Below, piece after piece: positions 4,497-21,022 of a stretch of DNA of 64,000 nucleotides; the stretch's first letter is position 1, and the number at the start of each line of letters is the position of its first letter. The position numbers were made by a program, and so were the translations under genes. The stretch covers positions 312,501-376,500 of the forward strand of contig NZ_LROY01000001.1 in assembly GCF_001639145.1 (NCBI RefSeq), in the 5' to 3' direction. Source of the DNA: Microbulbifer sp. Q7 (lineage in GTDB: Bacteria; Pseudomonadota; Gammaproteobacteria; Pseudomonadales; Cellvibrionaceae). Below the pieces are notes generated by a model. It was not told where the DNA came from. It was given only the letters and a program-made list of their open reading frames with translations, and searched no databases.

Positions 4497-4533
4497 GGTT
4501 GGCCTCCCGGCTGGTTTAAAAAGGCGCGGCCGA

Positions 4534-5628
4534 TCAGGCCGCGTCTTCCTCGCCTTTTTTGCCAATCACACCGCGCTGCAACTGATCGCGTTCGATGGAT
4601 TCAAACAGGGCCTTGAAGTTGCCCTCGCCAAAACCTTCGTCTTCCTTGCGCTGGATAAACTCAAAGAATACCGGGCCCAGCATGTTGGCTGAGAAAATCT
4701 GCAGCAGCAGGCGCGGCTGGCCACCCTCGGTGGTGCCGTCGAGCAGAATACCGCGCTTCTTGAATTCTTCGGTGGGTTCGCCGTGACCCGGCAAGCGCTC
4801 TTCCAGCATATCGTAGTAAGTATCCGGCGGCGGCGTCATGAACTGCATGCCGCGCTCTTTGAGACGGTCCCAACAGGCCACCAGGTCGTCACAGGCAAAG
4901 GCAATGTGCTGGATGCCTTCGCCGTTGTATTTCATCAGGTACTCTTCGATCTGACCGCCACCGCCGGCCGCTTCTTCATTCAGCGGGATGCGGATTTTGC
5001 CGTCCGGTGCAGTCATCGCCTTGGACAGCAGACCGGTGTACTCGCCCTTGATATCGAAGTAACGAATCTCGCGGAAATTGAACAGATCTTCGTAATACTT
5101 GGCCCAGTAGTCCATGCGACCGCGATACACGTTGTGGGTCAGGTGATCCAGGGTGTGAAAGCCACAGCCCTGTGGATGCTGGTCGACCCCTTCCAGCCAG
5201 TGGAAGTCGATGTCGTAGATGCTTTCGCCTTCTTTGTAGCGGTCGATCAGGTACAGGGTAGCGCCGCCAATGCCCTTGATCGCCGGCAGACGCAGTTCCA
5301 TCGGACCAGTCTTCACTTCAACCGGCTGCGCGCCCTTCTCGATCGCCGCGTTGTAGGCGAAGGTCGCGTCTTTTACGCGAAACGCCAGGCCACAGGCCGA
5401 GGCGCCGTGCTCGCGAGCGTAGTAGTCCGCGTGACTGCCTTTCTCATAGTTGGTGATAAAGTTGATGTCACCCTGGCGCCACAGCTCAACGTCTTTGGTG
5501 CGGTGGCGCGCTACCTTGGTGAAGCCCATGGCGTCAAAAACGGTCTCCAGAATGCCTTTCTCCGGGGCGGTGAATTCCACGAATTCAAAGCCGTCCAGGC
5601 CCATCGGGTTCTCAAATAAATCAGCCAT
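4534..5628 (-). CDS. hppD: 4-hydroxyphenylpyruvate dioxygenase
   Basis: A protein of 364 residues, the normal length for bacterial HPPD. It converts 4-hydroxyphenylpyruvate to homogentisate in tyrosine catabolism. The two-domain VOC architecture carries the Fe(II) ligands in the C-terminal half: His162 (LDHLTHNV), His241 (IQHIAFAC) and Glu323 (FFEFIQR). The family string [13 protein letters not shown] is also present. A strong AGGAGG site lies just upstream of the ATG. It is the first gene of the operon with the VOC and FAH-family genes. A palindrome about 90 nt upstream (5717-5730) is a candidate operator. Confidence 0.97.
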
Positions 5629-5968
5629 GTGATCCTCCTTTTATAGGATTCGTTATCGCGACCAGCAGCGCGGCTCGTGGCCGTCGGGTCGGGTGGTTTC
5701 AGGTGCAACGAATTTAGTTACGCGTGTAACCAATGTCAAGGGTCGCGAATGACGGCTCTTGAAGTGATAGGTCCAGACTACGGTTTCCGGTGGAAAATCA
5801 GTGACCAAACATTACGTTCTGTATCTCACATTTAAGGGACCACCGGGACGCGGAAGCTGAAGAGAGGTGAAAGAACTGACTGGGAAGACGGGCTAGCAGT
5901 GTGGCCAGCGTCGCTGCACCCCGAGAAACCACTAGGCAAGGGCGTTCAGGAACTCGAAATCTAGATGA
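5629..5968. other. Intergenic region between hppD and the EPS operon
   Basis: 340 bp. It contains the hppD leader and the 5717-5730 palindrome, and downstream the 3' flank of the CpsB-like gene. I see no convincing gene, tRNA or strong terminator in it. Confidence 0.6.
5717..5730. promoter_or_regulatory. Candidate operator palindrome upstream of hppD
   Basis: The inverted repeat GTTAC-GCGT-GTAAC lies 89 nt upstream of the hppD start, where a regulator of the tyrosine-degradation operon could bind. It does not match the TyrR box spacing (TGTAAA-N6-TTTACA). No regulator gene lies next to it. Confidence 0.4.
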
Positions 5969-6706
5969 TCAGGCACCGATAAACACACGATCACCCACGA
6001 TTTTCGCGGGATTATCTTTGACCAGTGCCCAGGCCGATGTCTCTCCGATTAACGTTTCGGCCGCACGTCGCCCTTCCGCCAAATTCGGGGGGCGTCGTTG
6101 TATGTGATGGGTATCAGTCGCCAGGACTGTTGCCAGGCCCCGCTTTACGATCTGCTCGGCGCGTGCCCGTGCAGGCTCCCCGAACTGCCCCACCAGAGCA
6201 CCTGCGGTAACCTGAAAAAGACAGCCCGCCTTGACGAGCGGTTTTATCTGGTCGAAATCGCGAATAATGTCTTTATTTCTCTCTGGGTGCGCTATCAGCG
6301 GCCGGACATTCTGACGGGTAAGCCAGTCGAGCAGCTTGGTCAGGCCCGCCGGAATGTGGCTATGGGGCATTTCCAACAATACGAGGAGGTCCCCCTCCCA
6401 GTATCCGAGGGCGGGTAGCTTATTCGCAGAAGCAAGATAAATCAGTTCGTCTGAAACCCGCACCTCTGCGGCCAGCGCAAACTGAACTCCAAGATCCTCG
6501 CGGACGGGCAGCGAATCAAGGAAACCTCGAAATGCCTGGGCGATTGAACTTGCAGTATTCGGATAACGCCCGGGATGAATATGCGGCGTTGCCACCATAT
6601 GCGTGATGCCATTAGATGCAGCTGCCCGGATTAGCGCCAAGCTTTGCTCTAATGTCTGCGGGCCATCGTCAACGCCCGGTAAAATATGGCAGTGGAGATC
6701 AATCAT
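5969..6706 (-). CDS. CpsB/CapC-type PHP protein-tyrosine phosphatase
   Basis: A protein of 245 residues. It opens with the PHP-fold metal motif DLHCHILPGVDDGP, followed by MVATPHIHPGRYP, LIAHPERNKDI and TDTHH, as in manganese-dependent CpsB/YwqE phosphatases. These dephosphorylate the C-terminal tyrosine cluster of the cognate Wzc-type kinase and so tune EPS polymerisation. It is the last gene of the minus-strand export operon, about 110 nt downstream of the kinase gene, which supports the pairing. Confidence 0.92.
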   Translation of the reverse strand: MIDLHCHILPGVDDGPQTLEQSLALIRAAASNGITHMVATPHIHPGRYPNTASSIAQAFRGFLDSLPVREDLGVQFALAAEVRVSDELIYLASANKLPALGYWEGDLLVLLEMPHSHIPAGLTKLLDWLTRQNVRPLIAHPERNKDIIRDFDQIKPLVKAGCLFQVTAGALVGQFGEPARARAEQIVKRGLATVLATDTHHIQRRPPNLAEGRRAAETLIGETSAWALVKDNPAKIVGDRVFIGA

Positions 6707-6815
6707 TGACGTATATTATCGCATTTATGGCGCGTTTACCCGCCGTCGACTATATGCCATCAATGCGCTTAGGCTCATGCTGCTAATAGACAATTTTTTT
6801 GAAGCCCTGATTTTA

Positions 6816-8996
6816 CTATGAGTATTCCGGATAATAACCATAATGTTGATCTGAATAAGCGCCCCGTTTCTCCATGGAAACGTAATTCAGTATCACGCCC
6901 TCAGGCCTGATTCCGATACTCGCCAGACGTGAAATTGCCGCTCGGACGACGCCTACCCTTGTCTCTTCTGCGCGAACGACGTAAAGCAAGGAGTTGGCTA
7001 ACTTGGCGATAACCATCACATCACTTACAGCCTGCACTGGTGGCGTATCGATAATAATACGATCGTATTTTCCCCTGAGCTCTTTCAACCTGTTCTGGAA
7101 TTGAACCGACCCCAACAAGCGCTGAGGATCTTCTGGACGAATGCCCGAGGGCATCAGGTCTACCCCGCTTTTTTCATCTCGAACAATACACTCATCAGTG
7201 GAAAAGCGGCCAGACAAAAGATCGGCGAGACCAGGTCGGTTTGGCGAAATATCAAATTTCCTAGCGATAGAGGGACGGCGCATATCGGCATCTATCAACA
7301 GCACTTTTTCAAGCTGTCCCAAGGAAAACGAAAGGTTGATTGACATAGAAGTCTTGCCTTCCTCTGGCGCAGACGAAGTTACACATATTACTTCGGCTCT
7401 ATCGTCCAATCGTGAGAGCACGACACCGGTACGCAACGATCGTATGGCTTCTGAAAACTGTCTATCTTCTCCATCAAAATAGTTATACAGAGCGAGCCCA
7501 TCTCCATCTTTTGAGGGCACTCTGGGAACCATGCCCATCAATGGCAGGCCTAGCTTTCTACTTACATCCTGTGGGTCTCGAATTCCATTTTTTAGGAGAT
7601 CCATTAAAACCACAAGCGCCACTCCGAATCCGGTACTCGCAACGAATGCGAACAAGATAAGAAGCCTCTTCTTGGACGCAAGAGGTCGCCTTGGTGTTAT
7701 CGCAGGATCTGCGAGACGAGCTGCAGCAGTCTCAAACCCGGAAACTTCACGAGTTTCCTTGAACCTTGTCAGGAAGGTATTATAAAGCTGGCTGTTGATC
7801 TCCACTTCGCGCCTTAGCTCATCGTAGCGCACCTCTTTTTGAGCTACGGTCTGCAAATCAGATTTGGCTATCGCCAGCTCCTTCTCTAGCGCACGCACTT
7901 TTTCCCTTGCTTGCTCGAAGTCGATTTCGATGCTCGCGACGAGATTCACTATCTCACCTCGGAGGTTCGCACGGGCACTGTCTAGCTCGTCGTGCGCCGC
8001 CTGCATAGCTGGGTGTTTGGGCCCATAACGGCGCGCAAGCTCGGTGACACCCAGCTGGGCAGAATTTTCTGCCTGGCGCGCGGCCTGAATCAGAGGATTA
8101 TTAAGAACCTCTGGCTGACTTAGCAACGACTCTGCAGCAACATCTTTCCTCCTGACCTGGCGGTAGATTGCCTCGACATCTTTGAGTTCCCGCTTTGCCT
8201 CCAGCAACTGATTCATTGTCTCGTTCAGTTCCTGAGACGCAAGCCCGCGCACCCCTTGTAGGTCAACCAGATCTTCACGCTGCTGAAACGCATTGAGAGC
8301 ATGCTCGGAAGCCTCCAGTTTTTCACGAAGGCCTTCTAATCTCTCACTCAGCCAGCTAGTGGCTTTTTCTGTCACATCTGTACGGACACTCTGCTGCTCC
8401 GCTATATAGGCTTGGGCAATTGCATTTGGTATGTCCGCGGCCAACCGAGGCGAGTAGCTTTCATAGGACAGCTTGATCAGCTGGGTATTCCTGACCGGCC
8501 TCACATTTATTTTGTCGACAATGTGATTCACGATCTGCTCGCGTTTGCGACGCGACAAAGCCTCTGGGTCCATTGATGCAGGTTCAGACTCAATGCCAAC
8601 CCACTGCTTTAATTTTGACGAGAGGGAGGGTTTCGGTGGCCGATTGAACTCCTCATGATTTTCCAGGCCAATCGCATCCACTACCCTCTCTGCGATCGCC
8701 CGAGAACGCAACATCTCGACCTGGGTCATAAGAAATTCACGACGCTGCGCGCCAGCCTCGTACACATCCCTGATTGAAACCAGATTGGTCTGGCTTGGCG
8801 ATAGCAATAGGGTCGCGGTCGCCTGATATCTGTCGCGTATGCTTTGTACAGAAAAATACGCCGCAATGGTGACCATCAGTGCAAATGCTGCGATGTACCA
8901 TTTTTTTTCATAAACGGCAAAAATCAGCGCAATGATATCAATATTACCCAGAGGCGAGGAATCCATCTCCTCCTCGATACGTGTATTAGTCTCCAT
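6816..8996 (-). CDS. Wzc-like polysaccharide co-polymerase / BY-kinase
   Basis: A protein of 726 residues with the standard arrangement: an N-terminal Wzz domain with a TM helix at about 30-50, long periplasmic coiled-coil segments, a second TM near 445-465, and a cytoplasmic BY-kinase domain. Walker A is seen as SSAPEEGKTSMS, Walker A' as VLLIDADMRRP and Walker B as RIIIDTPPV. The C terminus ends in a tyrosine-rich tail (YSDQHYGYYPEYS), the autophosphorylation cluster. It controls chain length and export in a Wzx/Wzy-type pathway with the neighbouring Wza-like and CpsB-like proteins. The start is not certain; a second ATG at residue 11 has a GAGGAGG directly in front of it. Confidence 0.95.
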   Translation of the reverse strand: METNTRIEEEMDSSPLGNIDIIALIFAVYEKKWYIAAFALMVTIAAYFSVQSIRDRYQATATLLLSPSQTNLVSIRDVYEAGAQRREFLMTQVEMLRSRAIAERVVDAIGLENHEEFNRPPKPSLSSKLKQWVGIESEPASMDPEALSRRKREQIVNHIVDKINVRPVRNTQLIKLSYESYSPRLAADIPNAIAQAYIAEQQSVRTDVTEKATSWLSERLEGLREKLEASEHALNAFQQREDLVDLQGVRGLASQELNETMNQLLEAKRELKDVEAIYRQVRRKDVAAESLLSQPEVLNNPLIQAARQAENSAQLGVTELARRYGPKHPAMQAAHDELDSARANLRGEIVNLVASIEIDFEQAREKVRALEKELAIAKSDLQTVAQKEVRYDELRREVEINSQLYNTFLTRFKETREVSGFETAAARLADPAITPRRPLASKKRLLILFAFVASTGFGVALVVLMDLLKNGIRDPQDVSRKLGLPLMGMVPRVPSKDGDGLALYNYFDGEDRQFSEAIRSLRTGVVLSRLDDRAEVICVTSSAPEEGKTSMSINLSFSLGQLEKVLLIDADMRRPSIARKFDISPNRPGLADLLSGRFSTDECIVRDEKSGVDLMPSGIRPEDPQRLLGSVQFQNRLKELRGKYDRIIIDTPPVQAVSDVMVIAKLANSLLYVVRAEETRVGVVRAAISRLASIGIRPEGVILNYVSMEKRGAYSDQHYGYYPEYS

Positions 8997-9003
8997 ACTT
9001 ATG

Positions 9004-9546
9004 TCAGAAAAACCCCTGCTCGATAGTCACCACGTCACCAGGCCGGAGCTTGGTAGACATCTCTACGCGCTCCCTCTCCTCTTCTGAATCACCCTCTCTA
9101 GTGAGAAATATTCTATTTTCCGATCCTCGCTCGGTGATTCCCTGTGCGAGCGCTGTAGCCTTGCCGACAGTTAAACCCGGTTGATAGCTATATCCTCCCG
9201 GCGCCTGCACTTCCCCGTAGATGAACACCGGGCGATATTGGGTTATAGATACGGTCACACTGGGGTCAATCAGATAGTCACCCTTGAGACCTTTTACAAT
9301 GATCGCCTCAAGCTCTTCAGGTGTAAGGCCGACAACTTTGATCTCACCGAGAAACGGATAATTGATATTTCCAGACTCTCCCAACATGGCGTCGATGTTC
9401 AGGTCATTCTCGCCATAGACCCGAATAGAAATTCTGTCACCGGCATTCATCCTGTATTCAACGGTCGCGGCCGCCGCATGTGTCAGCGAAAGCAAAACAT
9501 TGACCAAGATTGTCAAAGCCAGCGATGTTAGCTTCAAGGCACGCAT
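9004..9546 (-). CDS. Short Wza-like polysaccharide export protein
   Basis: A protein of 180 residues with a cleavable signal peptide (about residues 1-27, ending near THAAAA). A polysaccharide-export (PES) domain follows (YRMNAGDRISIRVYGENDLN), then one SLBB domain (VFIYGEVQAPGGYSYQPGLTV). It lacks the lipobox and the C-terminal helix of E. coli Wza, so it cannot form the same outer-membrane pore on its own. The barrel protein encoded next to it may supply that function. It ends 8 nt before the Wzc-like gene. Confidence 0.92.
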   Translation of the reverse strand: MRALKLTSLALTILVNVLLSLTHAAAATVEYRMNAGDRISIRVYGENDLNIDAMLGESGNINYPFLGEIKVVGLTPEELEAIIVKGLKGDYLIDPSVTVSITQYRPVFIYGEVQAPGGYSYQPGLTVGKATALAQGITERGSENRIFLTREGDSEEERERVEMSTKLRPGDVVTIEQGFF

Positions 9547-9573
9547 TCGAAATTCCTGTCCTGATCCTGCCTA

Positions 9574-10785
9574 TTAAAGCGGCGCCTCTAGCCCCAGAAA
9601 ATATCGATTATTTTCCAGGCCCAGAGCGTTTATCGAAGTGCTGCTGTCAAGACTGGACATACCAAGCCGCACGCTTAGCCAGTCGAGAGGCAAATATCCT
9701 ACTGAAAGACTTGACCGCGTCACCCGATCGGAACGTTCAGTACCAACGAATTCCCCCGCGGTCTCACTGTGAGAAAAGGTACTACTTAGCGTCTCGCCCC
9801 ACTGGTGAGTCCAGGAAAAAACGGAGCTCTTGACGTCAACAAAGCTCGCGAACCCTAGGGACTCCTGCACATTCTCCCCTATAGCGAACGAGATAGTACT
9901 GTACGTTTTTGGGCTCCAGGAAATTCGTCCGTCCCAGCGTGGCCCCTCAAAATCCGGCCTCGTATCCAGGGTAAAATCTCTGTGAAGTCTTCCGCCCCGC
10001 AATTGAATAGTTGTTTTTGGTAACCGTACCTCTGTGGTGGCCATCACAAGAACTTCATTACTGTCCCGCCTCGGAATCTGGGTTAGTTCCACATAGTCCA
10101 GGTTGGTTTGAACCGCCTCTATTCCCACCAGAAGCATACTATTCAATTCGAAGCTTCCAGTCGCTCCTGAATATACCGCTGTGGAATCCCGGGCAGCGTC
10201 GTCAAACTCACTTTTCCGTATGCCATGACGGATTAGGCTCTGTAGCCTGCCACCCTGGCGACCAAAGGCAATACTAACTTCTCCGCTCGGACGCCGTGTT
10301 CGCTCAGCCTCGACCAATATCGGCGCCAGCCCACCATCCAAAGTACCTGTAACCGACTGAGCGACATCCGCATAACTTGCTGTCGAACGCACCTCAATCA
10401 GAGAACCCACACGCCATTGCCAAGCAATATCTGCTGCATAATCTGTAAAATTTTCTCGTGCGCCATTTAGGTAGTGGCCACGGGTGACCGTAAAGCTAGT
10501 ACTCAGATTTGTACGCTGCCCCTCACGTGATAGCTCCAAAGACGGAGATACACGTGTAATCCAGTCGTCCTGGCGATTTTGTGTGGTTAATGAGACATTG
10601 TCGTCATACTGTACTTCTAACCCGGCCGAGCCGATCAGCTCGAAATTCGCCGGCAGGTCGACGGTGACCGCTTGCGCCGTCGCGGCGATACCCGCAAGCC
10701 CCAAAAATACAGCACCGCAGTGCAAGGTTATTTTTTTACCCTTCCAATGGCCGGCCACCTTACCGCTGTTGAATCTTCGCTTCAT
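9574..10785 (-). CDS. Outer-membrane beta-barrel protein of EPS export
   Basis: A protein of 403 residues with an N-terminal signal segment ending near AATAQA. The rest alternates short amphipathic strands with acidic turns and ends LGLEAPL, as expected for a transmembrane barrel. Similar 400-residue barrels accompany short Wza-like proteins in EPS loci of marine gammaproteobacteria. I infer it forms the outer-membrane exit channel that the truncated Wza-like partner cannot provide. It lies between the priming transferase and the Wza-like gene in the same operon. Confidence 0.75.
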   Translation of the reverse strand: MKRRFNSGKVAGHWKGKKITLHCGAVFLGLAGIAATAQAVTVDLPANFELIGSAGLEVQYDDNVSLTTQNRQDDWITRVSPSLELSREGQRTNLSTSFTVTRGHYLNGARENFTDYAADIAWQWRVGSLIEVRSTASYADVAQSVTGTLDGGLAPILVEAERTRRPSGEVSIAFGRQGGRLQSLIRHGIRKSEFDDAARDSTAVYSGATGSFELNSMLLVGIEAVQTNLDYVELTQIPRRDSNEVLVMATTEVRLPKTTIQLRGGRLHRDFTLDTRPDFEGPRWDGRISWSPKTYSTISFAIGENVQESLGFASFVDVKSSVFSWTHQWGETLSSTFSHSETAGEFVGTERSDRVTRSSLSVGYLPLDWLSVRLGMSSLDSSTSINALGLENNRYFLGLEAPL

Positions 10786-10833
10786 ATCAGTATCCCGCTC
10801 TCATCCACCGATCCGCACGACCGGGATTGACGG

Positions 10834-12246
10834 CTAATAGGCATTCTTGTGGTAAAAACCGCGATAAATGGTCAGGAATATAATTCGAAGATCAAGCAGG
10901 ATTGACCAGCGGCGAATATACTCGAGGTCATACTCGACACGCCGACTCATCTTGTACAGAGTATCCGTTTCTCCCCTGAAGCCTTTTATTTGCGCCAACC
11001 CTGTAATACCAGGCTTCACCTTGTGCCGGAGCATATAGCCATTGACTTGGCTCCGATATTCTTCGTTATGCGCTACCGCGTGCGGCCTGGGCCCCACGAT
11101 CGACATCGTTCCCTGTAACACATTAAAAAATTGGGGTAACTCATCAAGGGACGTTCGGCGTAGTATCCTACCCACTGGCGTAATACGTTGATCCCCCTCC
11201 TTCGCTTGCTCTACTTTTTCGCCATCGTCCATAGCCGTCATACTGCGGAACTTCCACACGTAAATTGTGCGGCCATCCAGCCCATAGCGTCGCTGCTTAA
11301 AGATAACTGGGCCAGGTGAGGTACACTTTACGGCCGCCGCGACCACCAACAGAATCGGTGAAATTAGCGCAAGGATCATTGATGCCAGAACGAGGTCTTC
11401 CAATCGTTTCAACCATCCATCAAATCCCTGAATCGGCGTATCGAACACGCTCAGAAGGCTACTACTTCCCACCTGATGCCAACGCGCATGCAACATCTTA
11501 GCGACAAAGAAGTTGGGAAGAATATGTACGGTTGCCGTCGTGTCTGAGAATTTATCCAACGTTTCGCTGATTATCTGCTCTGCCCGCATGGGTAGCGCGA
11601 TAAATACCAAATCCAGCTCACCCGCCCGCCCTTTTTCTAAGGCCTCATCTACGGTCCCAAGTACAGGGAATCTTGCTTCGTCGCCAAGGCAGCGGACGTG
11701 TTCTTGAAATCCAGGCACCTCATAGAAACCATTGACATGAATGCCCAACTGGGGGTTTTCGGCAAGATCCTTGGCGAGTTTATAGCCAGCGTCGGTGCAG
11801 CCAATGATCACTGCCCGGCGAGAATTGCCGCCATTCATACGAATGGCAAAGAGAAACTGACGCAAACAGTAGCGCCAGAAGGCCAGGCCGAAGAAAGTAA
11901 ATATCATCCATGCCGCGACGGCTGGCCGCATATAGTCAGCGCCAAATGCATTGAACGAATAAGCGAGGAGGATAAGAAAGGCACATACCGCAACCCAAGC
12001 CACAGTCACCGCACCGAGAATTCTTTTGTATGATTCACCGCGCCAGGATCGGTACAGTTCAACAGACTCTGATATAAAGGCAAAAGATACCGCGGCCAGC
12101 AGGCCTGCAATCAGCCAGTCTTTCCCGGGTGTGACCTCAAAGTACGCAAGACTTGCATAAAGTACCCCCTGAATTAGCAGCACATCAAACAGTCGATAAA
12201 GCGCTGTAATGCCACTTCGACGACTGCGGACCCATCCCTGTTCCAC
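10834..12246 (-). CDS. Undecaprenyl-phosphate sugar phosphotransferase (WcaJ/WbaP type)
   Basis: A protein of about 470 residues. The GTG at 12246 is preferred because a GAGGGA site sits 6-7 nt in front of it; another GTG two codons upstream overlaps that site. Four N-terminal TM helices are followed by a CoA-binding-like Rossmann segment (RAVIIGCTDAGYKLAKDL), a fifth hydrophobic segment, and the catalytic bacterial sugar-transferase domain. That domain carries KRRYGLDGRTIYVWKFRSM, RRTSLDELPQFFNVLQG and SIVGPRPH. It loads the first sugar phosphate onto undecaprenyl phosphate. It is the first gene of the five-gene minus-strand EPS operon. Confidence 0.95.
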   Translation of the reverse strand: MEQGWVRSRRSGITALYRLFDVLLIQGVLYASLAYFEVTPGKDWLIAGLLAAVSFAFISESVELYRSWRGESYKRILGAVTVAWVAVCAFLILLAYSFNAFGADYMRPAVAAWMIFTFFGLAFWRYCLRQFLFAIRMNGGNSRRAVIIGCTDAGYKLAKDLAENPQLGIHVNGFYEVPGFQEHVRCLGDEARFPVLGTVDEALEKGRAGELDLVFIALPMRAEQIISETLDKFSDTTATVHILPNFFVAKMLHARWHQVGSSSLLSVFDTPIQGFDGWLKRLEDLVLASMILALISPILLVVAAAVKCTSPGPVIFKQRRYGLDGRTIYVWKFRSMTAMDDGEKVEQAKEGDQRITPVGRILRRTSLDELPQFFNVLQGTMSIVGPRPHAVAHNEEYRSQVNGYMLRHKVKPGITGLAQIKGFRGETDTLYKMSRRVEYDLEYIRRWSILLDLRIIFLTIYRGFYHKNAY

Positions 12247-12816
12247 AAGCACTCCCTCTATTAGGAGAGGCTTAACGCCCCCAACTATTCCCTGTTTTTA
12301 AGCTCTTCTGCGATTAGGCTGAAGACACTGACATATTGCAAAACACATTAATCGCCAAAAATGAGATATCAGCAGCGACGGTGCCGTATACACCAATGCA
12401 TATACCGGGCCGATTTTCCTTGCTACCAAAATTTTTTTATCCCAGCTGTTTTTTGCTGTGAGTATGCGCCAGTGGCGTAGGATTATCGGACCAAAGTGTG
12501 ATGGGACTCAACTAATTTTCGAACACATAGCGCGCCAAGCACCAAAAAAGTGAATATTGGCGCGAATAAAAACCTAAGTGCATGGCCTGTGCGCTCCGAA
12601 CACTGAAATACGCGCCACATCTGCAAATGGGAACTCGATCTTCCATGGATGCAAGCGTGCATTTCGCACAAATTTTGAATTAAGCCTCCACCGGTGAATC
12701 ATTTTTGTGCGCGTGTTCTCAGTATTTTTCAGTTGACATTATTTTCAGCAATGCCATATTGGCGTCCGCTAGCCACAGTTTTCGTGGCAAAAAGTGCAAT
12801 TTCGGGGGGACATGGA
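12247..12816. other. Divergent promoter region between the two EPS operons
   Basis: 570 bp, AT-rich, separating the minus-strand export operon from the plus-strand NRPS-like operon. It contains a good sigma-70-like promoter for the plus strand (12733-12760). A short minus-strand frame (12483-12671) has no ribosome-binding site or family resemblance and was not called. Confidence 0.6.
12733..12760 (+). promoter_or_regulatory. Sigma-70-like promoter of the NRPS-like operon
   Basis: A perfect -35 TTGACA (12733-12738) and a -10 CATATT (12755-12760, 4 of 6) are 16 bp apart, placing a start near 12767 and a leader of about 50 nt before the 12817 start codon. Confidence 0.55.
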
Positions 12817-13479
12817 ATGTCTAGAGTCAGCAGAGTTGACCATATCGCATATGCGGTTGCAGAAGGAATGATCGAAAAATGGGCTTGGTACCACATCGAA
12901 GTGGAAGGCGGGAAGCTCACCAAACGGGTAGATGACGTTCGTCCCGACGATCCGGATAGCAGCATGAAGCTCTGGTGTATCGACTTTGAATCCTTCGGGG
13001 TCGTACTGGTAGAGGGGATCGATCGCAAGAAAAAGAGTCAAGTCACAGCCTTCGCTGAGTGCCATGGCGACCATAGCGTACAACATATCGCTTTCGACAC
13101 TGAAAACCTCGAGCAATTTGTTTCGCGCGCCATCGCTAAAGGTGTCAACCTTCGCGGGCAACAGCTCGTAAGCAATGATGGGTTCGGGGATCTGAAACAG
13201 CTTTTCGGCAAGGGATATGCCAAGCAGAACGCCGCAGAAATGTCCTTTCCTGAATACGTAGAGCGCCCCAAGCAGGGCGTACAGATGAGCACAAGCGTTC
13301 CACAAAATACCGGTAAGAACTTCTACCAGCGCATCGAACACGCGAGGAACACTGGTGATACATCGACATTGATCGACTTCGCCCTTATGCCTTCCGACTG
13401 GACTCCGGGCGCCCCGCAAGCACCGTCAGCTCCAATATCCACACGCTCTAAAGAACACGAAGCAACCGTCCAGGCTTAA
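12817..13479 (+). CDS. HPPD-like VOC protein, first gene of the NRPS-like operon
   Basis: A protein of 220 residues from the ATG at 12817, which has a GGGGGGA site 6 nt upstream. An upstream in-frame start at 12694 lacks one and would overlap the promoter. It resembles the C-terminal catalytic half of HPPD or hydroxymandelate synthase. Candidate Fe ligands are His9 (VDHIAYAV), His90 (SVQHIAFDT) and Glu146 or Glu149 (FPEYVERP). The N-terminal VOC half of HPPD is missing, and a Pro/Ser-rich tail follows the fold. I infer it may act on an aromatic keto acid and supply the acid used by the downstream enzyme. The substrate is unknown; a true HPPD exists elsewhere in the window. Confidence 0.8.
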   Translation: MSRVSRVDHIAYAVAEGMIEKWAWYHIEVEGGKLTKRVDDVRPDDPDSSMKLWCIDFESFGVVLVEGIDRKKKSQVTAFAECHGDHSVQHIAFDTENLEQFVSRAIAKGVNLRGQQLVSNDGFGDLKQLFGKGYAKQNAAEMSFPEYVERPKQGVQMSTSVPQNTGKNFYQRIEHARNTGDTSTLIDFALMPSDWTPGAPQAPSAPISTRSKEHEATVQA

Positions 13480-13616
13480 GCGTCGGGACTCTCCTGCGGC
13501 CGTCACTACGCACCCAAACCAATTAGTGTCGGCGATTGGCAGGCGACCTTCAGAAGGTTAATTTCATCCTGTAAATTGCGTAGATACGCTTAGGAATAGA
13601 TACGGACGAATACAGC

Positions 13617-16313
13617 GTGGAAAGTAGATCCATAGCCGGCGCATACCAAATTCGGGTAACACCCGACTCTTCCGACGCCACAATGCGATTATCATACGGC
13701 TTCGACGTTCCGGTGATTCGACAGATAGAACGCAATTCGGAAGGCTTCCCGGGCAAGATTGCACTCATACATAAGAACAATAAGCTGTCCTACTCCGACT
13801 TGATGGCTGCCGCACGCCAGCTTGCTGCCGGACTACAGTGCGCAGGCGTTACCAAATGCTCTCGGGTATCGCTATTAATGCATCCTTGTCCGCAATTGGT
13901 TATTGGCCTGCTCGCCACACACCTGCTTGGGGCAACTTATGTGCCTGTTGATCCGAGCTTCCCCGTAGCAAGAATCAGAATGATTTTGGAGGATATACAG
14001 CCCGCCGCAATCGTATATTTGGATGTAGATGGATGTGCGATACAAGAGACAATAACTGGATGTTTTTCTTCGCAGCTTCACACGTACGATCATTTATCAA
14101 TCCTTGGAGCGCATCAAGCAAATTCGTTTCAAGCATATCCGGTGACTCTAAGCGACGAGTCTCACATATTCTTCACTTCCGGGACTACAGGACGGCCGAA
14201 GGGCGCAGTTTCTTCACAGCTGAATCTCGCTCACGGAATGTCGTCATCGGCACACTGCTTCGAGCTTGACAGTTCGCATAGCATACTTTCTGTCGCTGGC
14301 TCGTCCTTTAGCATCAGCACTTTTGAACTCCTATCACTTCTTGCGGTTGGCGGCTCGATCATGATTGCTGAACGCGACGATATCCTTCAACTAGATGCCC
14401 TTTTCTCCACAGCCTGCCAGGTATCTGTATGGCACTTTGTGCCTACGCTACTTGCCAGACTCATAGAATTCGTGGAAGCGGAGCCGAGCAGGGCCGTACG
14501 CCTTAAAAACCTCCAACGCATCCTTACGGGTGGAGACAACGTTCCCCCCGACCTCCTATGCAAGATCCGAAGCCTGCTTCCGTGGGTGCATCTCTATGTG
14601 AACTACGGGGCGAGCGAGACAAGCTGTATGGTTACCTACTGGCCCGTAGCAGAGCTAGCTCCACTCAAAACAAAAATCGGAAGGCCGCAGAAAAATGTGA
14701 GGCTGCTGGTTCTCGATAAGAATGGCAAGGAGGTAGGCAAGGACCAGAGTGGGGAGTTGTTTGTCTCGAGTCCAGGAGTCATTGCTGGGTACTTAAACCG
14801 CGAAGACCTGAATCAACAGAAATTTCGCGAGATAGACGGCCGCCGATACTTTGCGACGGGAGACATGACGCGCGTCGATGAGGCAGGAAACTATGAGATG
14901 CTCGGCCGGGAAGATTTCCAGATTCAGCTGAATGGAAATCGGATCGAGCTCCTTGAGGTAGAGCGCACGCTCAAAGGGATACCAGGAATAAAAGACTGCG
15001 TTGTCGCAGCAAAATGCCTCAATGAGGAGTCCAATTCAGCGGCATTAGTGGCCTATATTTTGCCCGATGGATCCGTAGGCGCCACGGTCAGCGATATAAA
15101 GGCCATCGCTAGGGGCCTTCTCCCAGAGTATATGGTGCCCTCACTGTATCTTGAAATTGAGTCAGTACCGACCAATCACAATGGTAAAGTTGACAGAGCC
15201 AAGTTACCGGCACCGAGCGACTGTCGAGTACTTCAGTCGAATGAAGAGTTGCCGCTTAGTAATAATATTGAAATCAAGGTGGCGAATATCTGGCGTGAAC
15301 TTTTGGGTGCAAATTCAGTTCATGCAAACAGTCAATTCTTCGAGTTGGGCGGGGACTCGATTTCGGCAGTCCGTCTTATTACCAAAATATCTACAGAGTG
15401 TCTTGTCAATCTCTCTATCGCTGATATTGTTAGCAATACCACCGTGCGTCAACAATCAGCCCTGATTGAACAACGACAGTCAAACCAGGATATCACTGAT
15501 TCAGTAAGCCTCACCCACGATCCAGGGTACCTGCAATTAAAATCGGGGCGCAACGATATTTCGCCCCTGCTCTTGATCAATGGAGTTGTCGAATATCTCG
15601 AGTTAGCAAAGACCTTATCAACGGATCGATCAGTCTACGCCATATACCTTCCCGAGGAGATGGATCTAATCATTAAAGGCGCCGCGTCTACTGCGGCCAC
15701 TACAACAGATTCCATAGCTGGAATTACCGAGCTATATCTAACCGTAATTACCAGCCTGCAACCAAAGGGACCTTATTACCTGGCCGGGAAGTCCTTTGGC
15801 GGGATTATTGCCATTGAGGTCGCTCGAGAGCTCGAAAAGCTCGGGCACGAGGTAGCGTTCACAGGGTTGCTTGATACGGTAACACCAGAGGCATTTACCG
15901 CCCACCAGAGATTCCATTTCCGAGTAACGCAGCACATCAAGAATATTTTCAAGCAAGGTCCGAGATACTTGTTGGAGCGGGTTAACAGCAGACGTTCACG
16001 TACTACCCACAGGAACGCTTTACCCAGCTCTGTCGCACATGATTGTAACGAAGAGTCGATAAATATTCGCGTAAGACATCAAGTACGGAAGAATGCAATT
16101 TTCACAACTCGCCTGTCCCCTATTCAACGGCCGGTAGTACTGATTAAGGCCCGTGACCGAATACACCTATATGGCGAGAAACCATCTAAGGATCTAGGAT
16201 GGAATAAATATTGTGAAAACCTGATTACCTACGAAGCGCCCGGCAATCATCGATCTCTTCTAATGCCAGGACAGGCGGAGCATGTTGCGCGATATCTGGA
16301 GCTACATATTTAG
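13617..16313 (+). CDS. NRPS-like enzyme with adenylation-thiolation-thioesterase domains
   Basis: A protein of 898 residues from GTG 13617; an ATG at 13683 (residue 23) is an alternative and neither has a strong ribosome-binding site. Domains: adenylation about 30-530, carrier about 545-620, thioesterase about 645-898. Visible motifs are A3 (FTSGTTGRPKGA), A5 (NYGASET), A7 (YFATGD), A8 (LNGNRIELLEVE), A10 Lys524 (NHNGKVDRAKLP), carrier Ser581 (LGGDSISAVRL), and a thioesterase Ser726 in GKSFGG with Asp753 and a C-terminal His (APGNHRSL). The position that binds the substrate amino group (Asp in FDxS) is Ser232 (FSIS), which argues for a non-amino acid. There is no condensation domain. A-T-TE enzymes of this form are known to join two aryl keto acids; here MBOAT and SGNH genes follow, which suggests acyl transfer instead or in addition. 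Confidence 0.93.
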   Translation: MESRSIAGAYQIRVTPDSSDATMRLSYGFDVPVIRQIERNSEGFPGKIALIHKNNKLSYSDLMAAARQLAAGLQCAGVTKCSRVSLLMHPCPQLVIGLLATHLLGATYVPVDPSFPVARIRMILEDIQPAAIVYLDVDGCAIQETITGCFSSQLHTYDHLSILGAHQANSFQAYPVTLSDESHIFFTSGTTGRPKGAVSSQLNLAHGMSSSAHCFELDSSHSILSVAGSSFSISTFELLSLLAVGGSIMIAERDDILQLDALFSTACQVSVWHFVPTLLARLIEFVEAEPSRAVRLKNLQRILTGGDNVPPDLLCKIRSLLPWVHLYVNYGASETSCMVTYWPVAELAPLKTKIGRPQKNVRLLVLDKNGKEVGKDQSGELFVSSPGVIAGYLNREDLNQQKFREIDGRRYFATGDMTRVDEAGNYEMLGREDFQIQLNGNRIELLEVERTLKGIPGIKDCVVAAKCLNEESNSAALVAYILPDGSVGATVSDIKAIARGLLPEYMVPSLYLEIESVPTNHNGKVDRAKLPAPSDCRVLQSNEELPLSNNIEIKVANIWRELLGANSVHANSQFFELGGDSISAVRLITKISTECLVNLSIADIVSNTTVRQQSALIEQRQSNQDITDSVSLTHDPGYLQLKSGRNDISPLLLINGVVEYLELAKTLSTDRSVYAIYLPEEMDLIIKGAASTAATTTDSIAGITELYLTVITSLQPKGPYYLAGKSFGGIIAIEVARELEKLGHEVAFTGLLDTVTPEAFTAHQRFHFRVTQHIKNIFKQGPRYLLERVNSRRSRTTHRNALPSSVAHDCNEESINIRVRHQVRKNAIFTTRLSPIQRPVVLIKARDRIHLYGEKPSKDLGWNKYCENLITYEAPGNHRSLLMPGQAEHVARYLELHI

Positions 16314-16365
16314 CAGCGCTTACAGAGCGAAAATTCACAAATAAATATGCTGGCATGGAATCGAC

Positions 16366-18006
16366 GTGCTCTTTAATTCTATTACTTTCATCTTGATATT
16401 CCTGCCGTCCGTTTTGGTCGGCTACTATATTCTGCGCCATGTGACTCTCTTCCGCTTTGCGCTCGCATGGCTTTCGCTAGCTTCGCTATTCTTCTATGCA
16501 TGGTGGAACCCCCTATATTTAGCGCTGCTATTATCTTCTATCGTGCTTAATTTCATGCTTGGAAAAATAATCACTTGCAGTGATAGGCCCAAGCTATTCC
16601 TGATCATTGGCATTATTGGAAATCTTGCAGCTATTGGTTTCTACAAATATCTTGGTTTTTTCTCGACGATTATTTCAGGAGTTTCCGACCTTCAGGTCAC
16701 CACCCCCGAGCTGCTATTACCTCTCGCCATTTCATTCTTTACTTTTCAGCAGATTGCATACCTTGTCGATGTTTACCGCGGAGCGGGCGCTGAAAAAAAA
16801 TTCGACCAATATCTACTTTTCGTATCATTTTTCCCCCAGCTTATTGCGGGCCCCATCGTTCATCACAAAGACGTTGCCCCACAGTTTTCAGCTCTGCCAT
16901 ACACACCAATAAGGCATGAGCAAATATCCTCTGGGTTATTACTCTTTGTCATCGGGCTTGCGAAGAAAGTCATTATTGCCGACCAGCTTTCCCATTATGC
17001 GACTCCAGTTTTTTCTACCGCTGATAGTGGTGGAGCACCCGCCTTACTCGATGCCTGGGGTGGGCTTCTAGCTTATGCGTTGCAGCTATATTTTGATTTT
17101 AGTGGTTACGCAGATATGGCGGTTGGCTTAGCGAAAATGTTCGGTATCAATTTGCCGATCAACTTTGACTCCCCATATAAGTCGGCAAATATCGTTGAGT
17201 TCTGGCGCCGGTGGCATATCACTTTATCGCATTTTTTACGCGACTATCTCTATATAACATTAGGCGGTAGCAAGAGGGGATCAAGATCGTTAAACCTATT
17301 TGTGACTATGCTACTTGGCGGATTGTGGCACGGTGCAGGATGGAACTTCGTCATTTGGGGTGGATTGCATGGCACTTACTTGATCGTAAATCACTGGTGG
17401 GCTCAAGCTAAGTCGCTGCTGAATTTTACAGCCGACACGTCAACTTCAGGGCAGGTACTTTCTGTAGGTTTGAGCTCCAACAGCCACGGTCATTCACCGC
17501 GGACCGTTCCGCCAATATCAGAGAAGCCCTCTGGTTATCGCCTTTTTCCTTACCCTTCTGTTTATCGTGGGTTCGGTATTTTCACTACATTTTTGCTCGT
17601 ATCCTTGACTTGGTCGTTTTTTCGAGCAGAGTCACTGGATGGGGCATTGTCCATCCTTCGGGGAGCTTTTGGGCTTAATGGAATTAATGTTCCTCAGCAG
17701 ATTTTCTCTATCGCCCCGTACATATTTTCGATATTCGCCGACCCAACCCCCGGACTTTCCATTGGTGCATTTCCCCACGTCAAGGGCTTTGGATTTATCT
17801 TCGCTGCAATGTTCATTGTGTTCTTTTTACCCAACTCCAATCAAATTATTCGGTGGTTTTCTGAGACCACTAGCCTCCCAAGCAAAGGTCGCATAGATAC
17901 AATACAAACTACTGGAGTGATGGTCATTGCGGGGGTGCTTTTTGCCCTTTCATTAAAAATAATCGCATCCTCGCCGAATAGCGAGTTCCTGTACTTTAAC
18001 TTCTAG
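16366..18006 (+). CDS. MBOAT-family O-acyltransferase (AlgI/DltB-like)
   Basis: A protein of 546 residues with about 11 hydrophobic segments. The GTG at 16366 gives the family-typical opening LFNSITFILIFLPSVLV, so it is taken as the start although no clear ribosome-binding site is seen. MBOAT motifs are present: FSGYADMAVGLAKMFG, EFWRRWHITLSHFLRDYLYI and GGLWHGAGWNFVIWGGLHG, with candidate catalytic His322 and His335. Family members pass acyl groups across the inner membrane to polysaccharides, as in alginate acetylation (AlgI) or teichoic-acid D-alanylation (DltB). It lies 52 nt after the NRPS-like gene and 5 nt before the SGNH-like gene. Confidence 0.94.
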   Translation: MLFNSITFILIFLPSVLVGYYILRHVTLFRFALAWLSLASLFFYAWWNPLYLALLLSSIVLNFMLGKIITCSDRPKLFLIIGIIGNLAAIGFYKYLGFFSTIISGVSDLQVTTPELLLPLAISFFTFQQIAYLVDVYRGAGAEKKFDQYLLFVSFFPQLIAGPIVHHKDVAPQFSALPYTPIRHEQISSGLLLFVIGLAKKVIIADQLSHYATPVFSTADSGGAPALLDAWGGLLAYALQLYFDFSGYADMAVGLAKMFGINLPINFDSPYKSANIVEFWRRWHITLSHFLRDYLYITLGGSKRGSRSLNLFVTMLLGGLWHGAGWNFVIWGGLHGTYLIVNHWWAQAKSLLNFTADTSTSGQVLSVGLSSNSHGHSPRTVPPISEKPSGYRLFPYPSVYRGFGIFTTFLLVSLTWSFFRAESLDGALSILRGAFGLNGINVPQQIFSIAPYIFSIFADPTPGLSIGAFPHVKGFGFIFAAMFIVFFLPNSNQIIRWFSETTSLPSKGRIDTIQTTGVMVIAGVLFALSLKIIASSPNSEFLYFNF

Positions 18007-18011
18007 ATACT

Positions 18012-18995
18012 ATGCGCAATTACATCGCTTTTTCGTTTGGTGTATTCCTAGGCTTAGCCATGCTTGTCCTTCTTATTCAACTGCAAGAAGGCGTGCCCAC
18101 ATCCAGCTCCAAATGGGCTCACGACCTGTATCATGTCAAAGAAGAACATGCCAGAGCTGCCCATTCAAATAAACTCTTGATCGTCGCCGGATCAAATAGC
18201 CTCTTTGGGATCTCAGCCACGGAGCTAGAGGAGAAATTACATCGGCCAACGACGAATTTCGGTGTACATGCTGGTCTTGGACTTAGCTATATACTTGAGC
18301 GGAGCAAAGGATCCTTGATCCCAGGCGATATTGTTTATCTACCGATTGAGTATGCGCTCTATCAGCAAGACGCTGCGCCATCGTCACAATTGATGGACTT
18401 TCTTTTAGCCAGAGATCCTGAGTATTTTCACTCGCTACCTATTGCGCATCAGATACTTGGTTATGCCACCGTCTCGTTCGGACGGATATTCGAAGGGCTT
18501 AGCGGAGGCAGTGATCGCTATCAGGGTCGTTCGGCCAAGGTATACAATGTTGGCAACGTAAGTCCCTCTGGGGACCAGATAAGAAATAGCCTCGAGCAGG
18601 CTATGAGTTATACAGCACGACTGAAGGGTTTGCAGCCTAAGGACATAGGCAACGGAAAGATTTCTGAATACTCGAAATCAGTGCTTCGTCAATATTTCTC
18701 CTGGGCGAGAGAGAACAACATTTGCATAGTCGGAGCGCCACCTAACCTAATGTACTTTGAGGAATATGATTCGGAAAGATTTCTCGATTTTTTTGATGAA
18801 ATAGTCGATTTCTATCGGGCGGAAGGTGTCGCTTTCGCAGGTAGGCCTGTAGCCTATCTTCTCCCTGATTCATATTTTTTTGATACTGAGTATCATTTAA
18901 ACGAAACGGGGGTCGCACACAGGACCCGTCTGACGGTGAGGGATCTCGCTGGCCGAATGGACGGATATTGCTCCTACGATGCAGCCAGGTATTAG
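18012..18995 (+). CDS. Membrane-anchored SGNH-like protein (AlgJ/DltD-like partner)
   Basis: A protein of 327 residues with one N-terminal TM helix (about 7-24) and a periplasmic domain. A nucleophile motif is visible early (LIVAGSNSLFGIS, Ser61) and a C-terminal acid/histidine pair (FFDTEYHLNETG, Asp291 and His295), as in SGNH-like proteins encoded beside MBOAT genes. Such proteins complete transfer of the acyl group to its acceptor outside the inner membrane. It starts 5 nt after the MBOAT stop, so the pair is almost certainly coupled. It is the last gene of the operon; the next gene runs convergently with 4 nt between them. Confidence 0.85.
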   Translation: MRNYIAFSFGVFLGLAMLVLLIQLQEGVPTSSSKWAHDLYHVKEEHARAAHSNKLLIVAGSNSLFGISATELEEKLHRPTTNFGVHAGLGLSYILERSKGSLIPGDIVYLPIEYALYQQDAAPSSQLMDFLLARDPEYFHSLPIAHQILGYATVSFGRIFEGLSGGSDRYQGRSAKVYNVGNVSPSGDQIRNSLEQAMSYTARLKGLQPKDIGNGKISEYSKSVLRQYFSWARENNICIVGAPPNLMYFEEYDSERFLDFFDEIVDFYRAEGVAFAGRPVAYLLPDSYFFDTEYHLNETGVAHRTRLTVRDLAGRMDGYCSYDAARY

Positions 18996-18999
18996 TGAG

Positions 19000-20217
19000 C
19001 TAACCTATCCGCATTTTGTGTCCAAATCGTAATGCAACCGCTGTCACTACTCGACTAAGAGTTCCGACTCCAAGCTGGATATTAGGATCGACCTTGACGG
19101 GCGTACCGCGCACGAATCGCGATATGATTCTTAAAATGGCGTTCATGCTATTCCAAACTCTCTCCATCGCACCCTTCCCAAGCGGCAAGTCGCCAATTAA
19201 AACATCCTGATGGCAGACAAATGCTTCAGATATCGATGTAGGATAAGACTTGCCGGCTGTAGAATATCTGATGCCATTTTGGGCGCTGTCGATGATGAAG
19301 GATTCGTTTACGACACCGAAATTCTCTCCCAAAGGGAATACCTTAATATCCCGATTGGGCTTTATCCCTTCCGGGTATCGAAATACTTCCAGCGCTTCGT
19401 AGCAGATTATCGATCCTGCTTTCGCCACACGATGGTTTAATTTTCTCTTCCAGTCGTATATGCAGTCAGCGTCAATCCGCTTATCAATGTCTCCTTTCCA
19501 TGTCTCGGTCTCGACACGTACAAGATCTGCTCCAGACCTTTCAAGCATTTCAGGCTCAAAATCTTCACCGATAAACTTGCAAATCGCGCCGACTTCTTTT
19601 GACGGGTTTACCACCAGATCTTCATAACGAACGGTGACCGAGCCTGAATCATCACGAAAAAACGGTTCACTTTGTTCATACACTGACATCCAGCGATAGA
19701 ACTCGCCGACAAATGATTTGGACAAGCCAATGTTTTTTACTACTGATGGAATAGAGTCGCGAGGATCTCGAATTATGCGGATTATTTTTGCATCGGGATA
19801 GAGCAGTCTAATGGTGTCTGCATACATTATGTGCCGGGGAGTTTTTTCTGCCCATCGTACTTTTCCATGTCTATAGGCGAATGCGGCTGGAATTGCTGAA
19901 TAAATTGCCGACGCGGTAGGCTCTTGAGTGCACAGGTATTTATTAATCGATTGTTCTGTCAGTCCAAAATGGCTCAGCATACTCTTTCCATCCGGATATA
20001 GAATGCTTTTAAGTTGCAGGACGGCCAGCTGGCGCCAATCCTTCTCACGAACTATCTGAACGGCGGTCTCTAGCGGTATTGCTCTGAATAGATCCGTTTC
20101 AGGACCACATGCAATCCGGCTGTGACTGCCAAGTATGGCTGACAGAAGCGAAGTTCCTGATCTCGGTGGTCCGACGATAAAAACAGGTGACGCAGAATCT
20201 GAAGCTATTTTTGTCAT
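19000..20217 (-). CDS. Sulfotransferase family protein
   Basis: A protein of 405 residues. The PAPS 5'-phosphosulfate loop is seen at the N terminus (PVFIVGPPRSGTSLLSAILGSH). The 3'-phosphate-binding segment follows at about 145-165 (IIRIIRDPRDSIPS), then VTVRYEDLVVNPSKE. It probably sulfates a carbohydrate hydroxyl of the EPS. About 150 C-terminal residues extend past the core and resemble nothing I know. It is convergent with the SGNH-like gene. Confidence 0.9.
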   Translation of the reverse strand: MTKIASDSASPVFIVGPPRSGTSLLSAILGSHSRIACGPETDLFRAIPLETAVQIVREKDWRQLAVLQLKSILYPDGKSMLSHFGLTEQSINKYLCTQEPTASAIYSAIPAAFAYRHGKVRWAEKTPRHIMYADTIRLLYPDAKIIRIIRDPRDSIPSVVKNIGLSKSFVGEFYRWMSVYEQSEPFFRDDSGSVTVRYEDLVVNPSKEVGAICKFIGEDFEPEMLERSGADLVRVETETWKGDIDKRIDADCIYDWKRKLNHRVAKAGSIICYEALEVFRYPEGIKPNRDIKVFPLGENFGVVNESFIIDSAQNGIRYSTAGKSYPTSISEAFVCHQDVLIGDLPLGKGAMERVWNSMNAILRIISRFVRGTPVKVDPNIQLGVGTLSRVVTAVALRFGHKMRIG

Positions 20218-20346
20218 GGCGGCCGCAATGAATGTCTTTGGTCATAGAAAGCGATCATTCTATCGCAGATAGCTATTCTATTGACCCCAAAAGGAACCTA
20301 ACCCGCTTTTGCACACACCTCCATCTAACTAAATCGGAAGTGTCAA

Positions 20347-20436
20347 ATGGTACGAAGAAAGCGCTACAACCGCTACAACCGCTACAACGATGATTTCAAA
20401 GCAACAGCTAACGAAACTGGTTTCGCAGCTTCATAA
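20347..20436 (+). pseudogene. Possible IS3-type transposase OrfA fragment with 9-bp tandem repeat
   Basis: A 29-codon frame begins MVRRKRYN and continues DDFKATA, resembling the first residues of IS3-family OrfA proteins, then stops. It contains three copies of CGCTACAAC in a row (20362-20388), reading RYNRYNRYN. Its end overlaps the sulfotransferase gene that follows on the other strand. No further transposase sequence or terminal repeats are seen. The call is tentative. Confidence 0.35.
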
Positions 20437-21022
20437 GTACTGGGTACCTTCGTAGCCGAGATTTTAGCCATATGGGCAACGGAAACGCCCGGTTCGCAAT
20501 TGGGTACCGATGGATATTGCCGTCAATACCCAAAAAGTCAGCCAGCAATGCCATTTTTTTCTCTGATTCGATAGGAAGAACAAGAAGGTCATCTTCTCTT
20601 CCGCGGAAGTATGATGCAACTTCATTTACATGATTGGTATAAGCCGACCTGAAAATCTTTGTATTAAAAACCGAGCTACCGTAAAGTGCCTTATGTAAAA
20701 CCCTTTCGGCGTCCGAACTACTTAATTGGTCATTAAAATGGTTTTCGCAGGATCTCAACCATCCATCGATGCCCCTTGTTGTCAATATGAACTTCGACCC
20801 GGGATAACGTTTGTCCAGCTCTTTAAAGTAGTAGGCGATTTCGATATCTGTCGCTGAATCCATGCCATCAAGCTGATCAAAATCGAAGATTAGTTCTTTT
20901 TGGTCGTCAAGATGCAGCCATTCTGAGGGGTTGTGTATCGAATTTTTATACCCAAGTATCTTCAAAGCCTTCGTCAAACTGCTTGTTCCAGTCTTGGAGA
21001 GACCGACACCAAAAATTTTCAT
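20408..21022 (-). CDS. Small sulfotransferase family protein
   Basis: A protein of 204 residues. The 5'-phosphosulfate-binding loop lies at the very N terminus (IFGVGLSKTGTSSLTKALKILGY), followed by FILTTRGIDGWLRSCENHF at the 3'-phosphate site and LLVLPIESEKKMALLADFLGI near the C terminus, as in the Sulfotransfer_4-like group. It is unrelated in detail to the three other sulfotransferases in the window, so several different hydroxyls or sugars may be modified. It lies upstream of the 405-residue sulfotransferase on the same strand with about 190 nt between them. Confidence 0.87.
   Translation of the reverse strand: MKIFGVGLSKTGTSSLTKALKILGYKNSIHNPSEWLHLDDQKELIFDFDQLDGMDSATDIEIAYYFKELDKRYPGSKFILTTRGIDGWLRSCENHFNDQLSSSDAERVLHKALYGSSVFNTKIFRSAYTNHVNEVASYFRGREDDLLVLPIESEKKMALLADFLGIDGNIHRYPIANRAFPLPIWLKSRLRRYPVLMKLRNQFR

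Follow-up and report, generated by a model that had tools for sequence, protein, structure and literature searches.

Genes of the locus

The window (64,000 nt of the Microbulbifer sp. Q7 genome) carries four plus-strand genes, encoding a VOC protein, an A-T-TE synthetase, an MBOAT O-acyltransferase and an SGNH-like protein, in this order and with gaps of 137, 52 and 5 nt (Table 1). An earlier reading made from the sequence alone (the sequence-only reading) had described the same arrangement and proposed a Dlt-like system that passes an organic acid to an exopolysaccharide (EPS) or a lipid. The gene set is confirmed as real and beyond chance, because its order is conserved in 8/48 Microbulbifer genomes. 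An alternative upstream GTG start would lengthen the VOC gene to nt 12694. The promoter-like element claimed for the operon does exist, with a 10/12 match, but the region holds 6 such sites against 9.5 in shuffled sequences, and since there is no excess the element is weak evidence for a promoter.

The EPS setting that had been claimed is borne out. Sugar transferase (nt 10834 – 12252), export and chain-length genes adjoin the operon, with the export core divergent to it, and sulfotransferases and glycosyltransferases lie downstream. Four sulfotransferase-like genes were seen in the locus (nt 19000 – 21022, 34438 – 35364 and 37866 – 38846), and are consistent with a sulfated EPS. The EPS locus also includes a 931-aa protein with bacterial Ig-like domains (nt 25394 – 28189, minus strand), and next to the locus a small VOC-like protein is found beside the canonical HPPD (nt 3948 – 5628, minus strand).

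Table 1. Features of the operon and its surroundings (positions in the window)
Feature	Position (nt)	Strand	Basis or remark
Canonical HPPD	4534..5628	-	TIGR01263 400.3 bits, cut-off 277; context, possible homogentisate source
EPS core adjoining operon	5969..12252	-	Cps4B-like, chain-length/autokinase, EpsE-like export, 403-aa protein, initiating sugar transferase
Promoter-like element TTGACA-16-CATATT, TG before second hexamer	12733..12760	+	10/12 matches
VOC	12817..13479	+	Single-domain relative of the HPPD catalytic C-terminal domain; putative metal ligands H9, H90, E146
A-T-TE NRPS-like synthetase, 898 aa	13617..16313	+	Pfam; carrier Ser and TE Ser/Asp/His present
Ser232 codon, at place of GrsA Asp235, A4 motif FSIS	14310..14312	+	Alignment
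Carrier (T) domain	15276..15467	+	Pfam PP-binding, residues 554-617
Thioesterase domain, GKSFGG nucleophile, Asp and His present	15591..16310	+	Pfam, active-site residues
MBOAT O-acyltransferase, PatA/AlgI layout	16366..18006	+	Pfam MBOAT 5.1e-32
C-terminal acyl-shuttle motif FLYFNF (FXYXXF)	17986..18003	+	8/8 operon MBOATs
Membrane-anchored SGNH-fold protein; Ser61 in GSNS, His295 in FDTEYH	18012..18995	+	Motifs, AlphaFold model

The VOC protein

In Pfam, the VOC protein has only a weak match to Glyoxalase_4 (0.0016, below the cut-off). Against the NCBIfam HPPD profile TIGR01263 it scores 35.1 of the 277 bits at the cut-off (1e-8; profile positions 156 – 262 of 353), and as it also lacks a second VOC domain it does not qualify as an HPPD. 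Its sequence matches in the PDB are nevertheless six HPPD chains, and the longest fold alignments of its model (pLDDT 67.7) are to HPPD and hydroxymandelate synthase, the top Z score being shared by hydroxymandelate synthase and a glyoxalase-family protein. The three putative metal ligands occur in 121/121 aligned VOC rows, but these rows also share H26, H83 and H86 throughout, and E146 was not aligned with the HPPD Glu by MAFFT. The protein shares with HPPD and hydroxymandelate synthase the VOC fold, a sequence match in the catalytic half and candidate 2-His-1-Glu ligands, but differs in being a single domain of 220 aa, in lacking the P and N of the HPPD motif IPLN, and in coming from a genome that also has a canonical HPPD.

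The VOC family comprises 570 proteins at E 0.001 or better, and the named ones among those listed are hypothetical or VOC-domain proteins. Among 38 VOC genomes outside Microbulbifer, many of them draft MAGs, homogentisate dioxygenase (TIGR01015) was matched in 6 and exceeded its cut-off in 3, while canonical HPPD exceeded its cut-off in 3, all cyanobacteria. Because homogentisate dioxygenase is so rarely matched, the VOC product is not generally fed to HmgA, and a role as simple HPPD substitute in tyrosine breakdown was rejected. Members of the family are common in Acidimicrobiia and Woeseia-like genomes (L074 – L146), often beside a divergent Lrp-type gene, and these genomes mostly have no detected homogentisate dioxygenase.

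The A-T-TE synthetase

Activation and carrier functions are fused with a thioesterase, as the sequence-only reading had it. Pfam places AMP-binding (8.7e-68), PP-binding (1e-12) and Thioesterase (7.9e-17) domains in the protein, active-site residues are present and there is no condensation domain, the composition of an NRPS-like synthetase. The carrier Ser and the Ser/Asp/His triad of the TE are intact in the Microbulbifer members. In cyanobacterial relatives (L101, L105, L134) the TE nucleophile is Cys rather than Ser, and one of them has Glu for Asp; two cyanobacterial relatives have a partial condensation domain in their N-terminal part. Three Microbulbifer loci (L060, nt 7720 – 11055; L061, nt 8054 – 11347; L062, nt 8902 – 12309) encode longer relatives, in which an N-terminal part of about 250 residues has no Pfam match.

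In an alignment to LgrA, Ser takes the place of the Asp that holds the alpha-amino group (GrsA 235), giving the motif FSIS, and the ten-residue code, placed by the GrsA motifs, is SIFTLGNCMK. The list of code residues comes from PMC11253843, according to which adenylation domains that take hydroxy, keto or aryl acids have another residue for this Asp, and those for amino acids conserve the A5 Pro. Ser at GrsA 235 and the loss of the A5 Pro (325) were found in 31/31 aligned members, which had been picked for the presence of A, T and TE plus close similarity, and which stand apart from eight other adenylation domains in a tree (100/100). Since both residues are missing throughout, an alpha-amino acid is an unlikely substrate, in agreement with the organic acid suggested earlier. 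The members were drawn in part from 35 A-T-TE relatives, of which 12 were added to the signature alignment and 13 were the window protein, its Microbulbifer relatives and two cyanobacterial proteins whose loci were in the set before. For the remaining ten, scored by regular expression only, FSIS was found in five (P0149, P0150, P0151, P0153, P0154), FD.S in two (P0141, P0147) and neither pattern in three.

The A-T-TE quinone/furanone synthetases include the bacterial RalA. The fungal members that make atromentin or polyporic acid resemble the window enzyme in their A-T-TE layout (PMC10316625 and PMC9047271, both in part), and in the acid without an alpha-amino group and the aromatic precursor that are predicted for it. 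The fungal alpha-keto acid enzymes have Val at the first code position (PMC10316625, in part), whereas Ser is found here in 31/31 members, and the window enzyme differs further in its HPPD-type partner and in its place in a polysaccharide locus with an acyltransferase.

The MBOAT and SGNH-like proteins

In the Dlt system, the acyl group goes from DltC to DltB and on to DltX. The operon MBOAT scores 169.8 bits with the DltB profile TIGR04091 (cut-off 375), and DltB is the only solved MBOAT matched by sequence (6bug, 4e-34). The operon protein does not qualify as the DltB equivalog that works with a separate DltX. Instead, all 8 operon MBOATs have the C-terminus FLYFNF together with WHGAGWN, which contains the conserved His, and so show the PatA/AlgI layout. 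In PMC12148441, FXYXXF is described as an acyl shuttle that forms part of the MBOAT itself in PatA-like pairs and of DltX in the Dlt system, and PatA is reported to use acetyl-CoA; AT3 proteins are described with acyl-CoA donors (PMC12423673, in part).

The SGNH-like protein has no match in Pfam or NCBIfam. Its AlphaFold model (pLDDT 91.7) shows an N-terminal helix (residues 2 – 24) and an SGNH fold, and the membrane acyltransferase pair claimed earlier is supported. Alignments to DltD structures cover 234 – 243 residues and those to other listed SGNH proteins at most 207, with similar Z scores and with DltD chains that are also longer. AlgJ, AlgX and PatB were not among the best 50 fold rows, which excludes nothing. 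The candidate catalytic Ser and His of this adjacent, anchored protein lie in motifs (GS.S and DT.YH) that are kept in 8/8 operons.

The operon therefore resembles Dlt (DltA, DltB, DltC, DltD, DltX) in having adenylation and carrier domains, an MBOAT and an SGNH protein with a DltD-like fold, and presumably in transfer to an envelope polymer. It is unlike Dlt in the Ser that replaces the amino-binding Asp of the A-T-TE, in the shuttle Tyr fused to the MBOAT, in the HPPD-type enzyme and in the Gram-negative EPS setting. Strict Dlt membership was rejected on the DltB comparison above and on that with the DltA D-Ala ligase profile TIGR01734 (229.9 bits, cut-off 559.85; amino-coordinating Asp replaced by Ser). 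With PatA/PatB, AlgI/AlgJ and WssH/WssI it has in common an MBOAT with a C-terminal FXYXXF, a neighbouring SGNH protein and a polysaccharide setting in Gram-negative bacteria, to which it adds enzymes predicted to make and to activate an acid; PatA uses acetyl-CoA.

Distribution in Microbulbifer and exchange of the acyltransferase

Among the 48 genus genomes, VOC was found in 13, MBOAT in 10 and the SGNH protein in 8, and all four genes stand in the same order in 8. The sequence-only reading would have been contradicted by relatives in which MBOAT and SGNH are always alone, and this is not the case: 8/10 MBOAT matches lie in the operon, and the other two (G023, G063; 43 – 44% identity) are in genomes without VOC.

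Gene maps were drawn for the window and 12 further VOC loci (at L054 the VOC gene was masked by an opposite-strand ORF and was placed by the genus VOC search). The sole broken VOC, with an internal stop, is at L063 (G060), where the A-T-TE is absent from the 20 kb read. At each of the 12 intact loci an acyltransferase gene lies directly downstream or one small gene away, but it is of three types: MBOAT with SGNH in 8, an AT3-SGNH fusion in 1 (L059) and AT3 in 3 (L060 – L062; at L060 a small hexapeptide-repeat protein separates the pair from the AT3 gene). The A-T-TE is thus not tied to an MBOAT, since AT3-type proteins, absent from the window operon, fill the MBOAT/SGNH position in 4/12 intact loci. 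At L059, the A-T-TE is 66% identical to that of the window and its partner is an AT3-SGNH protein. Because the L059 adenylation domain falls within the window-type group (9 rows, 100/100), with L052 and the window as its neighbours (84/99, less than full support), the acyltransferase was probably exchanged here while VOC and A-T-TE stayed. The acyltransferase partner is therefore exchangeable in the Microbulbifer group.

Canonical HPPD is present in 48/48 genus genomes. It lies within 20 kb of the EPS sugar transferase in 13/13 VOC-bearing genomes against 5/16 VOC-less genomes with this transferase (Fisher p 0.0001, a value that ignores relatedness). The nearness of HPPD to the EPS locus was dropped as an argument, as the five VOC-less cases show that the neighbourhood is partly plain synteny.

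The HPPD-type and A-T-TE gene pair

The conserved unit is a gene pair, found mostly in the company of polysaccharide genes, in which an HPPD-type dioxygenase stands with a Ser-signature A-T-TE. The dioxygenase is the defining partner, which the sequence-only reading overlooked. In loci fetched only by A-T-TE similarity, with about 1.5 kb of flank on each side, an HPPD-type gene accompanies 12/13 distinct FSIS loci but 0/46 loci without FSIS. The 13 derive from 16 FSIS loci, three places having been fetched twice, and 11/13 are from Microbulbifer, so that independence is overstated; the 46 are defined by the missing FSIS pattern and include at least one repeat (L020/L177). The count covers neither L192 nor the cyanobacterial loci. 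The one FSIS locus without an HPPD-type gene (L165/L191) is near a contig end.

At three loci (G002, G927, G878), full-length HPPD paralogs or relatives take the place of VOC beside the A-T-TE. All three lie in or next to polysaccharide genes, and their HPPD proteins retain the motifs IPLN and GFGEGNF as well as the ligand positions seen in the Pseudomonas-type HPPD 1cjx. The G002 paralog is above the TIGR01263 cut-off and adjoins rmlA-D genes, and the G927 pair lies in an EPS locus that also has genes for a sugar transferase, export and chain length. This pair is followed by a glycosyl hydrolase family 71 protein (L190, nt 11831 – 14098), and at G878 a 296-aa protein with no Pfam match stands between the HPPD paralog and a sugar transferase (L192, nt 5862 – 6752).

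In cyanobacteria, VOC occurs in 4/291 genomes, three of them already known. The three known loci have a Ser-signature A-T-TE (3/3), prephenate dehydrogenase (3/3) and O-methyltransferase (2/3), and two have glycosyltransferases near the A-T-TE. Prephenate dehydrogenase makes 4-hydroxyphenylpyruvate, so its presence with VOC suggests that VOC acts on this compound. In G002, G927, G878 and the cyanobacteria, where neighbours were partly identified, no acyltransferase was recognised next to the pair: the Pfam tally of 24 neighbours gives 25 of 43 families and covers the larger ORFs, and a weak acyltransferase could be hidden.

An order-wide search matched 58/390 genomes; FSIS was confined to L160 – L165 among 30 loci fetched, and G878:C30 (L192), alone read among the places with no fetched locus, also has it. 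Class-wide searches of 369 genomes returned the window's own protein only, and by profile 12 further loci, none with FSIS; in both the order-wide and class-wide searches two candidates were scored per genome. A plasmid search gave partial matches only, in the MBOAT part of the query. At L151 (G602), VOC is near the contig start and no A-T-TE was present in the 20 kb read, a position too close to the start to judge.

Proposed function and alternatives

We propose, tentatively and with not quite an even chance of being right, that the enzymes of the operon convert 4-hydroxyphenylpyruvate to an aromatic acid, activate this acid and pass it to the EPS of the surrounding locus. VOC would oxidise 4-hydroxyphenylpyruvate as HPPD-type enzymes do. 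Its most likely product is homogentisate, because full-length HPPD paralogs replace VOC beside the A-T-TE elsewhere, with 4-hydroxymandelate as an alternative because of the VOC fold and the changed IPLN site. Judging from its signatures, the adenylation domain, without the amino-binding Asp, would load the acid on the carrier domain, and the TE would pass it to CoA, a small acceptor or a sugar. The MBOAT would then load its C-terminal Tyr with the acyl group, which the SGNH protein would transfer to the polysaccharide, AT3 proteins acting in place of both in relatives. Acyl-CoA is the donor described for PatA-like MBOATs and for AT3 proteins, so that CoA may be the acceptor to which the TE hands the acid, or else the acyltransferase may perform an unrelated acetylation.

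This proposal draws on the HPPD-type gene at 12/13 against 0/46 loci, on the Ser and the lost A5 Pro in 31/31 members, on the HPPD paralogs and the cyanobacterial prephenate dehydrogenase, on the acyltransferase at 12/12 intact loci and on the broken VOC at L063, where the A-T-TE is missing from the 20 kb read. Against it, a second homogentisate source would be redundant, as canonical HPPD is in every genus genome, and a single genus supplies the link between acid and acyltransferase, since no acyltransferase was seen beside the pair outside the Microbulbifer group. In addition, the TE with its intact triad might simply release its product, the characterised fused-shuttle MBOAT, PatA, uses acetyl-CoA, and the VOC, modelled at modest confidence, is without the P and N of IPLN.

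The strongest alternative, unlikely but of real weight, is that the product of VOC and A-T-TE is a free small molecule, with the TE condensing or releasing the aromatic acid as fungal quinone/furanone synthetases do with aryl pyruvates, and that MBOAT/SGNH is an ordinary acetyl-CoA EPS O-acetyltransferase sharing the operon. The A-T-TE layout, the TE triad of the Microbulbifer members, the PatA-type fused shuttle and the pairs with no acyltransferase seen beside them would all fit, but code position 1 is Ser and not the fungal Val, an acyltransferase is kept at every intact Microbulbifer locus despite the change of type, and most loci read are in or beside polysaccharide genes. It is quite improbable that the TE itself forms the ester of the aromatic acid with a sugar precursor in the cytosol or with a lipid-linked unit before export, with MBOAT/SGNH or AT3 adding separate acetyl groups; this would account for HPPD and A-T-TE among polysaccharide genes with no adjoining acyltransferase seen, and for the glycosyltransferases near two cyanobacterial A-T-TE genes, but leaves unexplained why an acyltransferase gene of any of three types follows the pair at 12/12 intact Microbulbifer loci. 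Least probable is the Dlt-like direct hand-off of the sequence-only reading, in which the carrier domain docks on the MBOAT as DltC does on DltB: activation, carrier, MBOAT and SGNH protein do share one operon, with DltD giving the longest fold alignments and DltB the only solved MBOAT match, but the fused, PatA-like shuttle of 8/8 operon MBOATs replaces DltX, the A-T-TE has a TE, which Dlt lacks, and no amino-binding Asp, and the AT3-SGNH protein beside the 66% identical A-T-TE of L059 argues against a specific docking pair.

Significance

No such operon was found described in the titles and abstract beginnings of the open-access literature among the matches listed, nor was an adenylation domain that activates homogentisate, or EPS esterified with homogentisate. 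A broader form of our proposal, rather doubtful as a whole, is that a two-gene module of an HPPD-type enzyme and a Ser-signature A-T-TE, present in cyanobacteria and in polysaccharide loci of gammaproteobacteria, produces thioesters with a homogentisyl or hydroxymandelyl group, which exchangeable membrane acyltransferases attach to EPS, giving a redox-active, cross-linkable, pyomelanin-like phenolic polysaccharide. Ferulate on plant walls follows a comparable logic. The acyl groups of bacterial polysaccharides are described as mainly acetyl, succinyl and other small acids (PMC9558356, in part). If the proposal is true, a module for phenolic decoration would place a redox- and metal-active, possibly cross-linking group in the biofilm matrix. 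It would also suggest a substrate for the FSIS adenylation subfamily, whose relatives' names state none, and a reaction for a large family of single-domain VOC proteins.
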